A DNA stretch of 64,000 nt from Alphaproteobacteria bacterium (GTDB lineage Bacteria; Pseudomonadota; Alphaproteobacteria; Micavibrionales; Micavibrionaceae). Positions 20,248 through 25,581 of this stretch are shown one piece after another. Positions within the stretch are counted from its first letter, which is position 1, and the number at the start of each line of letters is the position of its first letter. The stretch spans positions 248,001-312,000 of the forward strand of contig JAUIIA010000001.1 in the NCBI GenBank assembly GCA_030432025.1. Reading direction: 5' to 3'. A program made the translations under genes and the position numbers. The notes under the pieces are model-generated. The model did not search any database. It saw only the letters and a list, made by a program, of their open reading frames with translations, and was not told the DNA's origin.

Positions 20248-20277
20248 TTGACATTTACTACTGAAAGCGGCTTTATA
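20248..20277 (+). promoter_or_regulatory. Promoter of the arginine operon leader
   Basis: TTGACA at 20248-20253, an 18-bp spacer, and TTTATA at 20272-20277. The expected transcription start is 20284, which is exactly the A of the leader-peptide ATG. Confidence 0.65.
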
Positions 20278-20283
20278 GCGTCT

Positions 20284-20331
20284 ATGAAAAATTTAGTTGT
20301 CACAGTAACACCTCGACGACGCCCCCGCTAA
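20284..20331 (+). CDS. Arginine leader peptide (attenuator), leaderless
   Basis: Fifteen codons encode MKNLVVTVTPRRRPR and then TAA. Four of the last five codons are Arg (CGA, CGA, CGC, then CCC for Pro, then CGC). There is no ribosome-binding site, and the ATG coincides with the predicted transcription start, as known for the leaderless trp leader peptide of Sinorhizobium. The Arg codons and the stop lie in the left arm of an intrinsic terminator. A ribosome stalled for lack of charged Arg-tRNA would cover that arm and allow readthrough into the arginine genes. The mechanism is inference; the sequence arrangement is seen directly. Confidence 0.75.
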   Translation: MKNLVVTVTPRRRPR

Positions 20332-20356
20332 TCCACCCGATTAGGCGGGCATTTTT
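20321..20356 (+). terminator. Attenuator: intrinsic terminator overlapping the leader peptide
   Basis: CCCGCTAATC pairs with GATTAGGCGGG with one bulged G, around a 5-nt loop (CACCC), and is followed by ATTTTT. The left arm contains the last Arg codons and the stop of the leader peptide. About 50 bases further down a second short hairpin (about 20400-20424, arms GGTA and CCCTT) precedes the first structural gene. Confidence 0.72.
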
Positions 20357-20464
20357 CGTGCCTTAAATACCCCTCACTAAAATTGAACGCTTAATCGGTC
20401 GGTATTCCCTTGAAAGGGTTACCAAAGAATTGCATTGTATTAACGACTTAAGAATTTGAAAAAC

Positions 20465-21517
20465 ATGACCAAAATACACATCGATAAAATCGCTTCCGTC
20501 ACCAAAAATCTGGAGCTGAAGCACACAGAAAAACTGGCCGACAAGCTATCTTGCGAGATGGGAACCGTACTGGCCGTGCAGGTTCTGGAAGATAAAAGCA
20601 TCTATAACGAGCTGGAATTGCCGTCAGGGCGGATGTCTAAGCTCAAAAAAGGCGATATTCTGGCCGTAGCTTTGGGTAACCGCATGGCCTTAATGGGGTT
20701 TGTAGGTAATTTGCCCAAATCACTGAAGGTTGATGATGTTATCCACTTGTTGAATTTCGGCGGTGTTGCGGGTGTTTGCACCTCCGCCAACGTCAAGGAA
20801 GTCGGCGAACCCTTAAGAGTTCGGGTTTTGGGTGGTATCCAGCGCAAAGGCAAGCTGCTCAATATCGGTGATGCGGCGTTGTTTAAGCCCTCTCCTGCTC
20901 TGAAAAGCGATGTTCCGTTGATCATCACGACAGGTACGGCGATGGATAGCGGTAAGACGACCGTTGCAATCGAGATTGTTAAAACCCTGACACGGATGGG
21001 TATGAAGCTGGCGGGTGCGAAGCTGACCGGTGTCGGTGCGCAGCGTGATTTGTTCAAAATGCAGGATTACGGCATTTTCAACGGTGTATCCTTTGTTGAT
21101 TGCGGCGTGACATCGACGGCCGATATGCCGGACGAGCAGATGACAGCCGTAGCAAAGGGCGCAATCAACTATCTTTCAAAATCAGAGCCTGACGCGATTA
21201 TGATCGAGTTCGGCGACGGCATGATGGGTAAATACGGCGTGCATGCCATTTTGCAGGACCCTGAAATTCAGAAGAATGTCAGATTCCACATTGGTTGTGC
21301 GCGGGACCCTGTCGGCGCGATCGGCCTTGCCAGAGCCTGTGAGGACCTCGGTCTGCCGCTGGATGTTCTGAGCGGTCCCGTGACAGACAATCAGGTCGGT
21401 AAAGACATCCTAAAAGAGCAGCTCGGTATTCTGACATATAATGCCTTTAACCCTGACAACCTCTGGCTTGATCTGATCATCGCCAGATGGGCCATGGAGA
21501 TGCAGGATGCAGCCTAG
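20465..21517 (+). CDS. P-loop NTPase of unknown function, first gene of arginine operon
   Basis: About 350 residues. The N-terminal half (1-140) is a beta-rich domain of unknown family. The C-terminal half starts with a Walker A motif GTAMDSGKTT at 157-166 and resembles the dethiobiotin-synthetase-like or DUF1611-like class (AGAKLTGVGAQRDL, then DCGVTSTADM). It overlaps argC by 11 bp and is therefore part of the operon, but it is not a standard arginine-synthesis enzyme. I start it at the ATG at 20465; a TTG at 20456 would add three residues. Neither has a clear ribosome-binding site. Confidence 0.72.
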   Translation: MTKIHIDKIASVTKNLELKHTEKLADKLSCEMGTVLAVQVLEDKSIYNELELPSGRMSKLKKGDILAVALGNRMALMGFVGNLPKSLKVDDVIHLLNFGGVAGVCTSANVKEVGEPLRVRVLGGIQRKGKLLNIGDAALFKPSPALKSDVPLIITTGTAMDSGKTTVAIEIVKTLTRMGMKLAGAKLTGVGAQRDLFKMQDYGIFNGVSFVDCGVTSTADMPDEQMTAVAKGAINYLSKSEPDAIMIEFGDGMMGKYGVHAILQDPEIQKNVRFHIGCARDPVGAIGLARACEDLGLPLDVLSGPVTDNQVGKDILKEQLGILTYNAFNPDNLWLDLIIARWAMEMQDAA

Positions 21518-22484
21518 TATTAAAGCAAGCATCATTGGCATTACCGGTTACACGGGGCTGGAGCAGCTGCGGCTGTTACTTGCGCATCCGCATATCGAGA
21601 TTGTGCACCTGACCTCCAGACAGCATGAAGACACCCCGATCGGCGAGGTATACCCGCATCTGTCGCATCTGGATTTGAAGATCACAAATACTGATCACAA
21701 TACAGTCGGAGCGGATAGTGATGTTGTCTTCCTCGGTCTGCCTCATAAAACGGCGCAGGATGTCGTTGCGGATTTGCACGGTAAGGTGAAGGTCATCGAC
21801 CTGTCCGCCGATTACAGGCTGGATGATGTAGAGACTTACAAGAAATATTATCAGGACCACAATCACCCTGCTCTGCTCAAAGATGTCGTATACGGTGCGC
21901 CTGAATTCCATCGTGACGCGATCAAGGGCGCGGATACGGTCGCAAACCCCGGATGTTTTGCCTTGCTGGCGCAGATTATGCTCTATCCGTTTGCGGGATC
22001 AATCGAGCATGCGGATATTATGGCCGTGACAGGGTCCAGCGGATCAGGAAAATCGGCAAGTGACGGGACGCATCACCCGATCAGAAGCCATAACATGAAA
22101 AGCTACAACATCAACAAGCACAGGCATATTCCAGAGATTACGCGAACGGCGAAAATCGATGAAGCGCAACTCAACTTCGTGCCGACATCAGGCCCGTTCG
22201 TACGGGGTATTTTCGCGACCGCCTTTGTGAAAACGAATGCCGAACCTGCTGTATATAAAGACGAACCGTTTATACGGGTGATGGATACGGTAGCGCTTGC
22301 GAATGTAGTAGGATCGAATTACTGCGACCTGTCGTTTGAAAAAACAGATGGTGGATACATCGTACAAGGCGCACTTGATAACCTCGTCAAAGGGGCTTCG
22401 GGCTGCGCGGTGCAGAATATGAATTTAATGTTTGGACTTAACGAGACGGAAGGATTGGTGAGCCTCTCACCTCTATATCCATGA
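21507..22484 (+). CDS. argC: N-acetyl-gamma-glutamyl-phosphate reductase
   Basis: 325 residues. It reduces acetylglutamyl phosphate to the semialdehyde with NADPH. The nucleotide-binding IIGITGYTGLEQLRLL, the catalytic-Cys loop VANPGCFALLAQ (Cys about 148), and the HRHIPEI block are present. The active-site loop is NPGCFA rather than NPGCYP, and the segment SSGSGKSASDGTHHP is unlike the common SGVSGAG form, so it belongs to a divergent ArgC branch. It is coupled to the P-loop gene upstream and overlaps argB by 4 bp. Confidence 0.88.
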   Translation: MQPSIKASIIGITGYTGLEQLRLLLAHPHIEIVHLTSRQHEDTPIGEVYPHLSHLDLKITNTDHNTVGADSDVVFLGLPHKTAQDVVADLHGKVKVIDLSADYRLDDVETYKKYYQDHNHPALLKDVVYGAPEFHRDAIKGADTVANPGCFALLAQIMLYPFAGSIEHADIMAVTGSSGSGKSASDGTHHPIRSHNMKSYNINKHRHIPEITRTAKIDEAQLNFVPTSGPFVRGIFATAFVKTNAEPAVYKDEPFIRVMDTVALANVVGSNYCDLSFEKTDGGYIVQGALDNLVKGASGCAVQNMNLMFGLNETEGLVSLSPLYP

Positions 22485-23395
22485 TTATGAAACGTAAAAA
22501 CAAAATGCCGGAATTTTTCATCAACGCCTTTTACGAAAGCAAGTTCAAGGACAACTTCTTTGTGATCAAAGCGGGCGGGAAAATCATCGAAGATGACGAA
22601 GCACTGAATAACTTGCTGTGCAATATTCGCGAGTTGACCATGCAGGGTATTAAAATTCTGCTGATTTATGGTGGTGGACGCGCGATGGATATCGAAGCCG
22701 AGAAGCGCGGTGTCGAAGTGCAAAAGACAGGCGGCAAACGCATTACCGATGAAGCGAACATGGACATCATGAAGCATGTTCTGGGCGGTGATATGTCCTT
22801 GAAAGTTTCAGGCGCCATGGCCAAAGCCAAGCTGGACGGCCTTTCCTTTAACGCCGTGCCTGCGGACTGGATGAGCGTTTCCCTGCAGCCGAAAGTTAAA
22901 GGCGATGACTTCACTGGCGGCATTCATAATGTTTATGAGCGTCCGGTAAACAGATTGTTTAGAACCGTAAATTTTGTAGCCTGCGCTTGTATCGCGATTA
23001 CCGAGGATGGCACGGCATGTAATATCAATGCGGACACAATCGCGACACAGCTTGCGATCGGAACCAAAGCGCACAAGCTGATGTTCTTGTCCGATGTAGA
23101 CGGCGTGAAGATCAAAGACGAAGTTGCCGACATCATCACCTCGGAACAGATCGAAGGATTGATCGCGGACGGTACAGCGACAGGTGGTATGCAGGTCAAG
23201 CTGGAGAACTGTAAGGCCGCACTGGATGCTGGCGTACGGCGCATCCACTTGATGAGCGGCCTACGCAAGGATGCCTTGAAGAAAGAAATTTACGAGCCGG
23301 TCGGTCCGGGAACGATGTTGTTCTCCGAAAGCGAACGGCAATCCTACACTAACGAAGTTGAAGCGCAGAAATTGATTGAAGGACAGAAAGGGTAA
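22481..23395 (+). CDS. argB: Acetylglutamate kinase
   Basis: 304 residues, amino-acid kinase fold. It phosphorylates N-acetylglutamate. Family motifs are FVIKAGGKIIED (N-terminal Lys), LIYGGGRAMD (usually VHGGG), NINADTIATQLA, LMFLSDVDGV, and GMQVKLENCKAAL. The altered YGGGRAMD loop and the C-terminal extension of about 20 residues match the divergent character of ArgC. The start overlaps argC as ATGA; a second in-frame ATG follows at the third codon. Confidence 0.85.
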   Translation: MIMKRKNKMPEFFINAFYESKFKDNFFVIKAGGKIIEDDEALNNLLCNIRELTMQGIKILLIYGGGRAMDIEAEKRGVEVQKTGGKRITDEANMDIMKHVLGGDMSLKVSGAMAKAKLDGLSFNAVPADWMSVSLQPKVKGDDFTGGIHNVYERPVNRLFRTVNFVACACIAITEDGTACNINADTIATQLAIGTKAHKLMFLSDVDGVKIKDEVADIITSEQIEGLIADGTATGGMQVKLENCKAALDAGVRRIHLMSGLRKDALKKEIYEPVGPGTMLFSESERQSYTNEVEAQKLIEGQKG

Positions 23396-23400
23396 GTATC

Positions 23401-24606
23401 ATGAGCCAGGAAGCAAAACATATAATCGATGAGTCATTCGGCTATCTCGTAAAAACATACGCGCCACAACCCGTGGTGATGGATTACGGCGAAGGCTGTT
23501 ATGCCTATGACACAGACGGTAAGAAATATCTGGATTTTGCGGCAGGCATTGCAGTCGCATCCCTAGGTCATGCGCACCCTGCTGTTTTGAAAACCATCAA
23601 TGAGCAAGCCGCACGCATGATGACATGCCAGGCATCCTACGCGACGAAAGAAAAACTGGATGCGGCCAAGGCCTTGGTCGAAACAAGCTGCTTTGATCTG
23701 GTGTACTTCTCCAACAGCGGTACAGAAAGCGTCGAAGCCTCCCTCAAATGTGCACGCAAGTGGGCCTATGATGAAAAAGGCGAACAAGCCAACGAGATCA
23801 TCGCATTCAGAAAATCATTCCATGGCCGGACTTATGGCTCCGCCAGTGTGACAGAAAAATTCCACGTGCAACCATTCTTCGGCCCGTATCTGGGCGGCAT
23901 AAAATGGGCAGAGTTTAATGATCTTGAATCCGTTAAGGCGGTTGCCTCGGCTGAAAAAACAGCTGCAATCATTGTTGAACCAGTTCAAGGTGAAGGTGGT
24001 TTAGTACCGGCAGACGCAGAGTTCCTCAAAGGTTTGCGTGCGCTGTGTGATGAGTTGAATATTTGCCTTATATTTGATGAAGTTCAGGCTGGGTTCGGAC
24101 GTTTGGGTACATTACATGCTTATGAAGCGTTCGGGGTTGAACCCGACATTGCCGCATGGGCCAAAGGCATGGGTACAGGCTTCCCCGTCGGTGCGATGGC
24201 AGCGAAGGAAAAATTCGGTAAGGCAATTGTTGTCGGCACACACGGCACGACCTATGGCGGCAACCCGCTTGCCTGTGCCGTAGCTGCTACAGTGATGGAA
24301 GAGCTGACCAAGCCTGGCTTCATGGAACAGGTAGGTAAAACCTCCGCGATCCTGTTTGAAGGTTTGAACGAGATCAAACGCGCATCTAACAAGATTACGG
24401 AGATCCGTGGCAAAGGATTGATGATCGGTGTCGACACGGTGTTCGACATCAAGAATGTTCTAGGCGGTTTGCAGAAAAACGGCCTGATGGCAACGCAGGC
24501 GGGTAAAGACACATTGCGCCTGACACCGCCGCTGATCATCACCGAAGATCATGCGAACGAAGCACTGGAGATAATTAAAACGACATTAGGCGAGCTGGAA
24601 GAGTAA
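23401..24606 (+). CDS. argD: Acetylornithine aminotransferase
   Basis: 401 residues, PLP-dependent class III aminotransferase. The PLP-phosphate region FSNSGTESVEASLKCAR, the LIFDEVQAGFGRLG motif, and the catalytic lysine in WAKGMGTGFPVGAM are clear. It converts acetylglutamate semialdehyde and glutamate to acetylornithine. It lies 5 nt after argB with AGGG as ribosome-binding site, and its TAA overlaps the argF ATG (TAATG). Confidence 0.93.
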   Translation: MSQEAKHIIDESFGYLVKTYAPQPVVMDYGEGCYAYDTDGKKYLDFAAGIAVASLGHAHPAVLKTINEQAARMMTCQASYATKEKLDAAKALVETSCFDLVYFSNSGTESVEASLKCARKWAYDEKGEQANEIIAFRKSFHGRTYGSASVTEKFHVQPFFGPYLGGIKWAEFNDLESVKAVASAEKTAAIIVEPVQGEGGLVPADAEFLKGLRALCDELNICLIFDEVQAGFGRLGTLHAYEAFGVEPDIAAWAKGMGTGFPVGAMAAKEKFGKAIVVGTHGTTYGGNPLACAVAATVMEELTKPGFMEQVGKTSAILFEGLNEIKRASNKITEIRGKGLMIGVDTVFDIKNVLGGLQKNGLMATQAGKDTLRLTPPLIITEDHANEALEIIKTTLGELEE

Positions 24607-25523
24607 TGGGCGAGATCCGACATTTTATTGACCTCAAGGATTTTGACGGGACCACGCTGCAGGCGATCCTGAAAAAGGCACATACCTTGAAGGCCGAGAA
24701 ATTTAACCCGCCGCAACTCTTCACAGGGTTGTCACTGGCGATGATGTTTGACAAGCGTTCGACCAGAACACGGATGAGTTTCGAGATTGCGATGAAACAG
24801 CTCGGCGGTCACACGGTTGTGATGAACAAGGAAGAGTCACAAATCGGCGGTGCGGAAAGCATTGAGAGCACCGCGATGGTAATGTCACGTTTCGTTGATG
24901 CGATCATGGTACGGATGAGCGACCATGACGCGTTTCTGGAGCTGTGCAAATACGCGCAAGTGCCCGTCATTAACGGCATGACCAATCGTTCTCACCCCTG
25001 CCAGATTATGGCCGACCTGATGACAATCGAAGAAAAGCTGGGCAGTGCGAACGGTAAAAAAATCGCGTGGTTTGGTGATTATAACAATGTCAGCCAGAGC
25101 TATATAGAGGCCGCACCGTTGTTCGGATTTGAATTTATCATGGCCCTGCCCGCAGACCTCAATGGCAATGTACCTGAAGGTACGGCGTTTACGAATGATG
25201 CCAAGGAAGCGGCGAGCGGCGCGGATGTCATCGTAACCGACACATGGGTTTCGATGGGCCAAGAAGGCAAGGATATTGAAAAATTCTGGCCGTATCAGGT
25301 CAATGCGGAGCTGATGTCACACGCGAATGACGATGCTATTTTCCTACATTGCCTACCGATGCATGAATGGGAAGAAGTATCAGAGGAAGTCGCCAAAGGG
25401 CCGCAATCCGTGATTTTCGACGAAGCGGAAAACCGTCTGCATGCGCAAAAAGCCATCCTCGCATGGTGTCTTGAAGAGGCCGGTGTAAGCGTCCAACAGG
25501 ATAGCTTTAACTTCGGGACCTAA
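24606..25523 (+). CDS. argF: Ornithine carbamoyltransferase
   Basis: 305 residues. The carbamoyl-phosphate site DKRSTRTRMSFE (about residues 49-60), the HPCQIMADL block, the SMGQE loop and the ornithine-side HCLPMHEWEEV are present. It makes citrulline from ornithine. It is the last gene of this operon; argG, argH and a gene for acetylornithine deacetylation (argE or argJ) are not in the window. Confidence 0.94.
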   Translation: MGEIRHFIDLKDFDGTTLQAILKKAHTLKAEKFNPPQLFTGLSLAMMFDKRSTRTRMSFEIAMKQLGGHTVVMNKEESQIGGAESIESTAMVMSRFVDAIMVRMSDHDAFLELCKYAQVPVINGMTNRSHPCQIMADLMTIEEKLGSANGKKIAWFGDYNNVSQSYIEAAPLFGFEFIMALPADLNGNVPEGTAFTNDAKEAASGADVIVTDTWVSMGQEGKDIEKFWPYQVNAELMSHANDDAIFLHCLPMHEWEEVSEEVAKGPQSVIFDEAENRLHAQKAILAWCLEEAGVSVQQDSFNFGT

Positions 25524-25544
25524 AGCCATTTTAGGACTTCCCTA

Positions 25545-25575
25545 GCCAAGCCGACTCTCAGTTGTTAGGCTTGGC
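25545..25575 (+). other. Perfect inverted repeat before the symporter start
   Basis: GCCAAGCC at 25545-25552 and GGCTTGGC at 25568-25575 form an 8-bp perfect stem with a 15-nt loop, ending 6 nt before the ATG at 25582. There is no T-run, so it is not a good intrinsic terminator for argF. It may control the translation start of the symporter, which has no visible ribosome-binding site, or it may only protect the argF 3' end. Confidence 0.5.
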
Positions 25576-25581
25576 ATCATT

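Follow-up and report, generated by a model that had tools for sequence, protein, structure and literature searches.

How might a bacterium in which no ArgR is recognized adjust the expression of its arginine genes? Arginine operons are usually credited to the regulator ArgR, and attenuation is textbook knowledge for several amino acids. The question is raised by the stretch of 64,000 nucleotides analysed here (the window), which comes from the 2.44-Mb genome (G000, contig 5) of a Micavibrio-type alphaproteobacterium and contains an arginine operon. A search with the ArgR profile PF01316 gave no match above cut-off in 57 genomes, the window's own included, and three matches below it; the same search was positive in 9 of 14 control genomes. 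Likewise, none of the Rfam riboswitch, T-box and leader families matches the window at its gathering score.

The region of interest, 20248-20464, lies on the + strand; a divergent D-Ala-D-Ala-ligase-like gene flanks it on one side and the arg genes on the other. We consider it likely to hold an arginine-responsive, ribosome-mediated transcription attenuator, a very small one that operates without a separate antiterminator before its T-tract. Most comparisons below use a detailed set of 28 leaders from 30 loci tried, collected with a scan that required in-frame Arg codons and a TTGA box 33-38 nt 5' of the ATG, so that these two features are not independent in the set. The parts of the element and the genes of the operon are the following.

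20248-20253, + strand: -35 box TTGACA of the putative promoter P1 (read from the sequence; the TTGA box begins 35-37 nt 5' of the ATG in 28/28 leaders, within the 33-38 nt that the scan itself permitted)
20271-20277, + strand: -10 region of P1, either CTTTAT with a 17-bp spacer or TTTATA with an 18-bp spacer (read from the sequence; a T-rich peak lies at -12 to -10 in the 28 aligned leaders)
20284-20331, + strand: leader ORF encoding MKNLVVTVTPRRRPR and a stop, predicted to be leaderless (read from the sequence; a short Arg-run ORF is present in 34 of 38 covariance-model matches)
20314-20328, + strand: candidate sensor codons CGA CGA CGC (Pro) CGC (sequence and codon tally)
20324-20333, + strand: terminator left arm (A), in which the last Arg codon ends and the stop codon lies (hairpin search and alignment)
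20339-20349, + strand: terminator right arm (B), with one bulged base (hairpin search and alignment)
20352-20356, + strand: T-tract TTTTT, predicted 3' end of the attenuated RNA (read from the sequence)
20388-20396, + strand: segment A' (CGCTTAATC), complementary to the terminator right arm (pairing test and sequence)
20410-20438, + strand: P2, a promoter-like pair TTGAAA-N17-CATTGT 3' of the terminator (17-nt spacing in 23 of 23 loci)
20465-21514, + strand: first gene of the operon, 350 aa, with a sub-threshold match to a DUF1611 P-loop profile (ORF and profile searches)
21507-22484, + strand: argC (TIGR01850, above cut-off)
22481-23395, + strand: argB-like acetylglutamate kinase gene (TIGR00761, 149.0 bits, slightly under the cut-off of 151.3)
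23401-24606, + strand: argD (TIGR00707, above cut-off)
24606-25523, + strand: argF (TIGR00658, above cut-off)

A sequence-only reading of this DNA had already described a promoter, a short ORF, its Arg codons and a hairpin, and every letter of these was found where that reading placed it. The four Arg codons start at 20314 (CGA), 20317 (CGA), 20320 (CGC) and 20326 (CGC), and the stop codon TAA occupies 20329-20331; the codons thus lie in or just before the left arm, as had been claimed. Two alternatives for the -10 region, TTTATA at 20272-20277 and CTTTAT at 20271-20276, are equally possible, and six bases separate the former from the ATG at 20284. The leader ORF is predicted to be leaderless, with transcription starting from the A of the ATG; AGGA, GGAG or GAGG at -18 to -4 is absent from all 28 leader upstream regions. 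Its product has 15 residues and ends in arginines. The computed energy of the hairpin (20324-20333 with 20339-20349) is -11.8 kcal/mol, and of 200 dinucleotide shuffles a single one folds at least as well as RNA 20284-20375 (z -3.33). Termination at 20352-20356 would leave an RNA of 73 nt.

The same reading had placed argC, argB, argD and argF downstream. All four are present, but argC is not the first gene, since the gene for the 350-aa protein precedes it. This protein has no Pfam or NCBIfam match at default threshold and no convincing relative among solved structures; its gene adjoins argC in many relatives. A sodium symporter (SSF) gene follows argF in the window, and an inverted repeat, GCCAAGCC...GGCTTGGC, is seen between the two at 25524-25581. 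By ArgC, the closest named relatives are MAGs labelled Micavibrio sp. or Alphaproteobacteria bacterium (L075-L078).

The element would work as follows. RNA polymerase would start on the AUG of the leaderless ORF, and a ribosome would begin on this 5'-terminal AUG. When charged tRNA-Arg is scarce, the ribosome would stall on CGA-CGA-CGC with its leading edge over the foot of the left arm; with that arm covered the hairpin would not form, and the polymerase would continue into the arg operon. When arginine is plentiful and the ribosome has finished and gone, or when the RNA is free of ribosomes, the hairpin would form and transcription would stop at about 20356. A separate antiterminator before the T-tract would be unnecessary. 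From the sequence we infer the start site, the stalling, the direction of the response, the release of the ribosome before the polymerase escapes, and the shares of transcription that come from P1 and P2. Stalling in the arginine-starved cell appears the likeliest 'on' state, since the reverse response would make little sense for a biosynthetic operon and would have no need of rare Arg codons.

Is this arrangement kept in relatives? A covariance model (R1) was trained on 10 of 12 leaders, promoter included; excluded from the training were L004, which contains N bases, and L011, whose hairpin differs. At an E-value of 0.01 or lower the model matched 38 of the order's 142 genomes, in one place each. 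Read by eye, 34 of these matches contain a short ORF with two to five adjacent arginines (in G002 the run was read across N bases). The match in G076 has scattered Arg codons only, and those in G083, G036 and G063, with no Arg ORF at that place, were taken as false. The sequence-only reading would have counted a lack of conserved Arg codons in relatives against its proposal, but the 34 matches keep them, with a hairpin at or just after these codons. A class-wide search of 385 genomes, evenly drawn from a larger group under stricter filters, gave matches in six; four belong to the same family and two (L194, L195) have no Arg run by eye and were taken as false. At the level of sequence, comparison therefore confirms that the element is real and conserved.

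Among the 34 Arg-run leaders, 31 lie 5' of the gene for the 350-aa protein and/or argC; at L067 (G062) leader and argC are about 0.8 kb apart, with what looks like another short gene in between. The other three (G123, G069, G040) precede genes with sub-threshold GNAT matches, very weak in G069 (E 0.066). These genomes have no ArgC at E 1e-60, G040 having a weak ArgC match, and in G040 the GNAT-like gene is followed by a PutP-like SSF symporter gene related to the window's symporter gene downstream of argF. The loci of these GNAT-type leaders are L185 (G123), L187 (G040) and L188 (G069). Counted from the side of argC, the order has 55 argC-bearing genomes, with a leader that is clear in 36, ambiguous in 4 (G058, G066, G076, G087) and not seen in 15, G030 with its upstream bases read as N being among the latter. 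The model accounts for 31 of the 36, and five more were recognized by eye (G025, G063, G067, G103, G119), G103 being counted without a check of the gene immediately downstream. In all four argC genomes of a second family no leader was seen. ArgC itself is present at E 1e-60 or better in only 55 of the 142 genomes of this Micavibrio-type order, some of them incomplete, which suggests repeated loss of arginine synthesis.

The operon may not depend on P1 alone. Between the terminator and the first gene, the pattern TTG(A/C)NN-N17-CATNN(T/A) occurs in all 23 loci that have the gene for the 350-aa protein. Its spacing is 17 in 23 of 23, with no other spacing from 14 to 20, and shuffles give 0.165 of 23, for a pattern that was written after the sequences had been viewed. 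This putative promoter, P2, could bypass the attenuator; if active, it would yield operon transcripts that are not attenuated. It could be imagined that P2 mainly drives the operon and that the P1 leader chiefly yields a trans-acting small RNA or peptide, like rnTrpL and peTrpL of Sinorhizobium. The strictly kept spacing of P2 would agree with this, and the attenuated RNA would resemble rnTrpL in being a leaderless mRNA (PMC7298713). However, an RNA acting in trans would have no need to remain before the gene for the 350-aa protein and/or argC, where 31 of the 34 leaders are found, and the N-termini of the peptides are not conserved. We regard such a role as unlikely, and return to attenuation in cis.

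The hairpin was aligned in 10 leaders (alignment A4, without L004 and L011). In this alignment 86.6% of cells are paired, against 22-40% after one arm has been slid by 1-3 columns. Two-sided changes are seen in 7 cells, against 2.4 after shuffling, where 1 of 500 reached that number; with pairs as the unit of counting, the excess is unremarkable (3 against 1.6; 71 of 500). RNAalifold without constraints returned 5 pairs only, those of the foot (-4.56 kcal/mol). In the detailed set, the hairpin search succeeded in 24 of the 28 leaders, with poor results in L066 and L070 and none in L007, L037, L054 and L057. Where the search succeeded, the start of the left arm is at most 13 nt from the first base of some Arg codon, and in 23 of these 24 leaders it is 3-12 nt 5' of the stop codon. 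T-tracts are short in several relatives (for example L003, L005 and L007).

What a ribosome would do to this stem was calculated with its leading edge taken as 13 nt past the first A-site base, and with right arms set by eye in all 28 leaders, as also for the pairing of A' below. With a stall at the first Arg codon at least half of the stem energy is lost in 15 of the 28 leaders, at the second in 20, and at the last all or nearly all of it is lost in most; a stall at either of the first two has little effect on the stem in L011, L035, L036, L071 and L074. The window leader's stem, at -12.5 kcal/mol when free, keeps -6.0 with the ribosome at the first Arg codon and nothing with it at the last. 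This loss at the Arg codons supports direct masking in the model. A ribosome on the stop codon, however, masks the stem as well, in 28 of 28 leaders. The terminator could therefore act only if the ribosome is released, or never loaded, before the polymerase leaves the T-tract, and starvation and plenty would differ only if release is fast. In this calculation the earlier claim that a stalled ribosome hides the arm directly is supported for most leaders at the second Arg codon, with the qualification that a ribosome at the stop codon would do the same.

Masking from the stop codon brings to mind a control of opposite sign. In pyrBI, antitermination is coupled to translation, and here too a ribosome keeping pace with the polymerase would mask the left arm, also while waiting at the stop codon, and slow or absent translation would lead to termination. 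The position of the arm in 23 of the 24 leaders, beginning so shortly before the stop, would agree with such a mechanism. Yet it would turn arginine synthesis on when arginine is abundant, and it leaves unexplained why the codons are for arginine, why they are mostly the rare CGA, and why the run is placed at the arm. We consider this quite unlikely, and stalling on the Arg codons under starvation remains the reading that we prefer.

Classical attenuators hold an antiterminator before the T-tract; none shared by the leaders was found here, either when seven of them, the window's included, were folded freely or in the fold of the alignment. The sequence-only reading had supposed that none was needed, and the absence of a shared alternative partner for the terminator arms in these folds agrees with this. 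In the free minimum-energy fold of the window leader, the start of the ORF also pairs with the T-tract region, and GTTGTC pairs with GACGAC. Several candidates for a partner were considered and set aside. An upstream stretch that pairs with the Arg codons is present in L001, L002 and L010 and absent from L003. Pairing of A' with the right arm is below 0.05 against shuffles in 12 of 28 leaders, a count that includes two near-duplicate pairs and an L007 in which the partner differs, and it is mostly no better than with partners swapped from other species. Since A' is transcribed after the T-tract, it cannot be an antiterminator for that T-tract. By eye, A' varies together with the right arm in some relatives (for example L008, L013, L061 and L070). 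Pairing of the 5' end of the ORF with a segment after the T-tract, assessed after 4 near-duplicates of 39 had been dropped, is below 0.05 in 8 of 35 leaders (7 of 34 if L004, with its filled-in N bases, is omitted); it is not claimed, because the cross-species control is flat (median fraction 0.44). A motif like TTGTGCTGA stands 3' of the terminator in the loci L074, L190, L193, L198 and L199, where the leader is directly followed by argC, and in some it can pair with the 5' end of the ORF. Masking of the ribosome-binding site of the first gene is unlikely, as the T-tract ends 108 nt before its ATG.

The choice of codons favours stalling for want of charged tRNA-Arg. The 28 peptides are 11-18 residues long and their N-termini share little, with the Arg run kept. 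Past position 4 the leaders contain 108 Arg codons (CGA 59, CGC 38, CGT 11, and no AGA, AGG or CGG), and the first two Arg codons are CGA in 47 of 56 cases. In 35 long ORFs of the window, which alone serves as yardstick, CGA makes up 31 of 764 Arg codons (4%). Consecutive identical rare Arg codons near the start of a message delay ribosomes, according to work cited in PMC6386406, and a CGA-CGA stall site fits this. The fungal arginine attenuator peptide offers another precedent, in which it is the peptide that arrests the ribosome. By analogy, a nascent peptide ending in ...RRRPR, perhaps together with arginine, might itself halt the ribosome, and the C-terminus RRR(P/T/S)R is indeed kept in most close relatives. 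Distant leaders, however, keep the Arg run alone (RRRRR, RRRRRTI, RRRRGK, RRLTR), the residues before it are not conserved, and arrest by the peptide alone would not select a rare synonymous codon. Such an arrest seems very unlikely, and a shortage of charged tRNA-Arg remains our preferred cause of stalling.

Chance was assessed with a strict scan (TTGAC followed at 34-38 nt by an ATG that opens 9-30 codons, of which the last 9 include three or more for Arg). On both strands of the window its single match is the leader. In first-order random sequence it gives 26 matches per 60 window-lengths, or 0.0007 per one-strand region of 200 nt, and in 244,577 bases of related loci (L001-L039 and L045-L074, many overlapping) it gives 52 matches, all of them leaders, with 27 distinct peptides. 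A simple consensus scan misses both P1 and the terminator: its -10 pattern requires A as the second and T as the sixth base, and the stem of the terminator is bulged. That a chance ORF and hairpin stand here without any regulation is scarcely credible: the consensus scan is silent on both signals, but conservation and compensatory changes across genera speak against it.

Polycysteine leaderless ORFs of mycobacteria were reportedly described by Canestrari 2020. In the available text of PMC13236596 and PMC9031893 these ORFs sense one amino acid, as here, but it is cysteine and they act on translation. The closest precedent seems to be trpL/rnTrpL of Sinorhizobium meliloti, which is also alphaproteobacterial, with an AUG at the 5' end of the RNA and a terminated small RNA (both predicted here), a run of regulatory codons and a biosynthetic gene downstream, and with a leader peptide of 14 aa (PMC7298713, PMC10117765). 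It responds to tryptophan and, in the same accounts, uses two mutually exclusive structures including an antiterminator. The element of the window, in contrast, is devoted to arginine and has one hairpin before the T-tract, with the codon run and the stop inside or touching its left arm; the layout is not that of a classical attenuator, since no antiterminator was found there. Leaderless amino-acid leader peptides had been credited to the trp operon of Sinorhizobium, where they are indeed known, but they also occur elsewhere: leuL, trpL, ilvL, metL and thrL of Streptomyces lividans are leaderless, with none for arginine in the accessible part of the report (PMC8079986), and so is the leader ORF of ilvB in Corynebacterium diphtheriae, which is not for arginine (PMC5784534).

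Overlap of regulatory codons with a terminator has precedents too. Candidate leader ORFs overlap terminators 5' of ilvB in Actinobacteria, for branched-chain amino acids and not arginine; a codon substitution in S. coelicolor had no effect, and the same source, as far as its available text goes, describes arginine operons of Actinobacteria as having no conserved RNA structure upstream and arginine genes elsewhere as having T-boxes (PMC1262725). The ilvBNC operon of C. glutamicum has since been given a three-hairpin model (PMC11857589). In the ilvBN leader of Caulobacter, again for branched-chain amino acids, ribosome pausing is said to block the terminator hairpin, with direct masking unstated in the accessible text (PMC4117421). 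As for arginine itself, speF orf34 of Salmonella (PMC6386406) and rbfL of Staphylococcus (PMC13009471) are short leader ORFs in which the pausing of ribosomes at Arg codons signals its supply. Both have a Shine-Dalgarno start; orf34 regulates polyamine synthesis by way of Rho, translation initiation and mRNA decay, and with rbfL it is the ribosome-binding site of a biofilm regulator that is covered. By the available accounts, neither controls arginine synthesis (PMC6386406, PMC13009471).

Arginine specificity, size and the stop codon in the arm set the element apart from known attenuators. The novelty proposed for it stands in part: an arginine transcription attenuator before arginine synthesis genes was not found in the literature searched, which included few subscription papers, but pausing that blocks a terminator had already been worded for ilvBN of Caulobacter (PMC4117421). 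On balance, we think it probable that a leaderless RNA of 73 nt carries a single hairpin that is both terminator and target of the sensor, its left arm being the end of the ORF; that this arginine-specific design, absent from the literature searched, replaces ArgR across the Micavibrio-type family and, in genomes that have lost argC, precedes GNAT-like and transport genes; and that a convergent, classical counterpart exists in Chloroflexota. If true, this would extend attenuation, in conserved form, to arginine as a further amino acid and would illustrate how the pathway can be controlled in bacteria without ArgR. The element would also be a very small natural test of ribosome occupancy alone setting intrinsic termination, with no antiterminator, and the stop codon inside the terminator arm makes the kinetic question a sharp one.

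The Chloroflexota counterparts appeared in the search for named ArgC, which included nine loci of this phylum. Six (L126, L138, L148, L149, L152, L153) have a short, leaderless-type ORF with Arg codons before argC, its ATG 35-39 nt after a TTGAC box, with only two Arg codons in L138; in L134, L144 and L154 no such leader precedes argC. A looser scan flagged 13 of 30 further Chloroflexota loci, the best of a 201-genome search; one of these is L152's own, five share one peptide type and some (for example L161) are doubtful. Eleven leaders were examined (L126, L138, L148, L149, L152, L153, L156, L163, L164, L165, L177), and no ArgR was found in nine Chloroflexota genomes with a leader. Six of the eleven have no antiterminator partner of the kind seen in the other five (L126, L152, L153, L156, L163), where a segment after the Arg codons complements the left arm of the terminator, below 0.05 against shuffles, in a classical antiterminator layout. 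Because sequence and layout differ from those of the Micavibrio-type leaders, we read the Chloroflexota leaders as probably having a separate origin.
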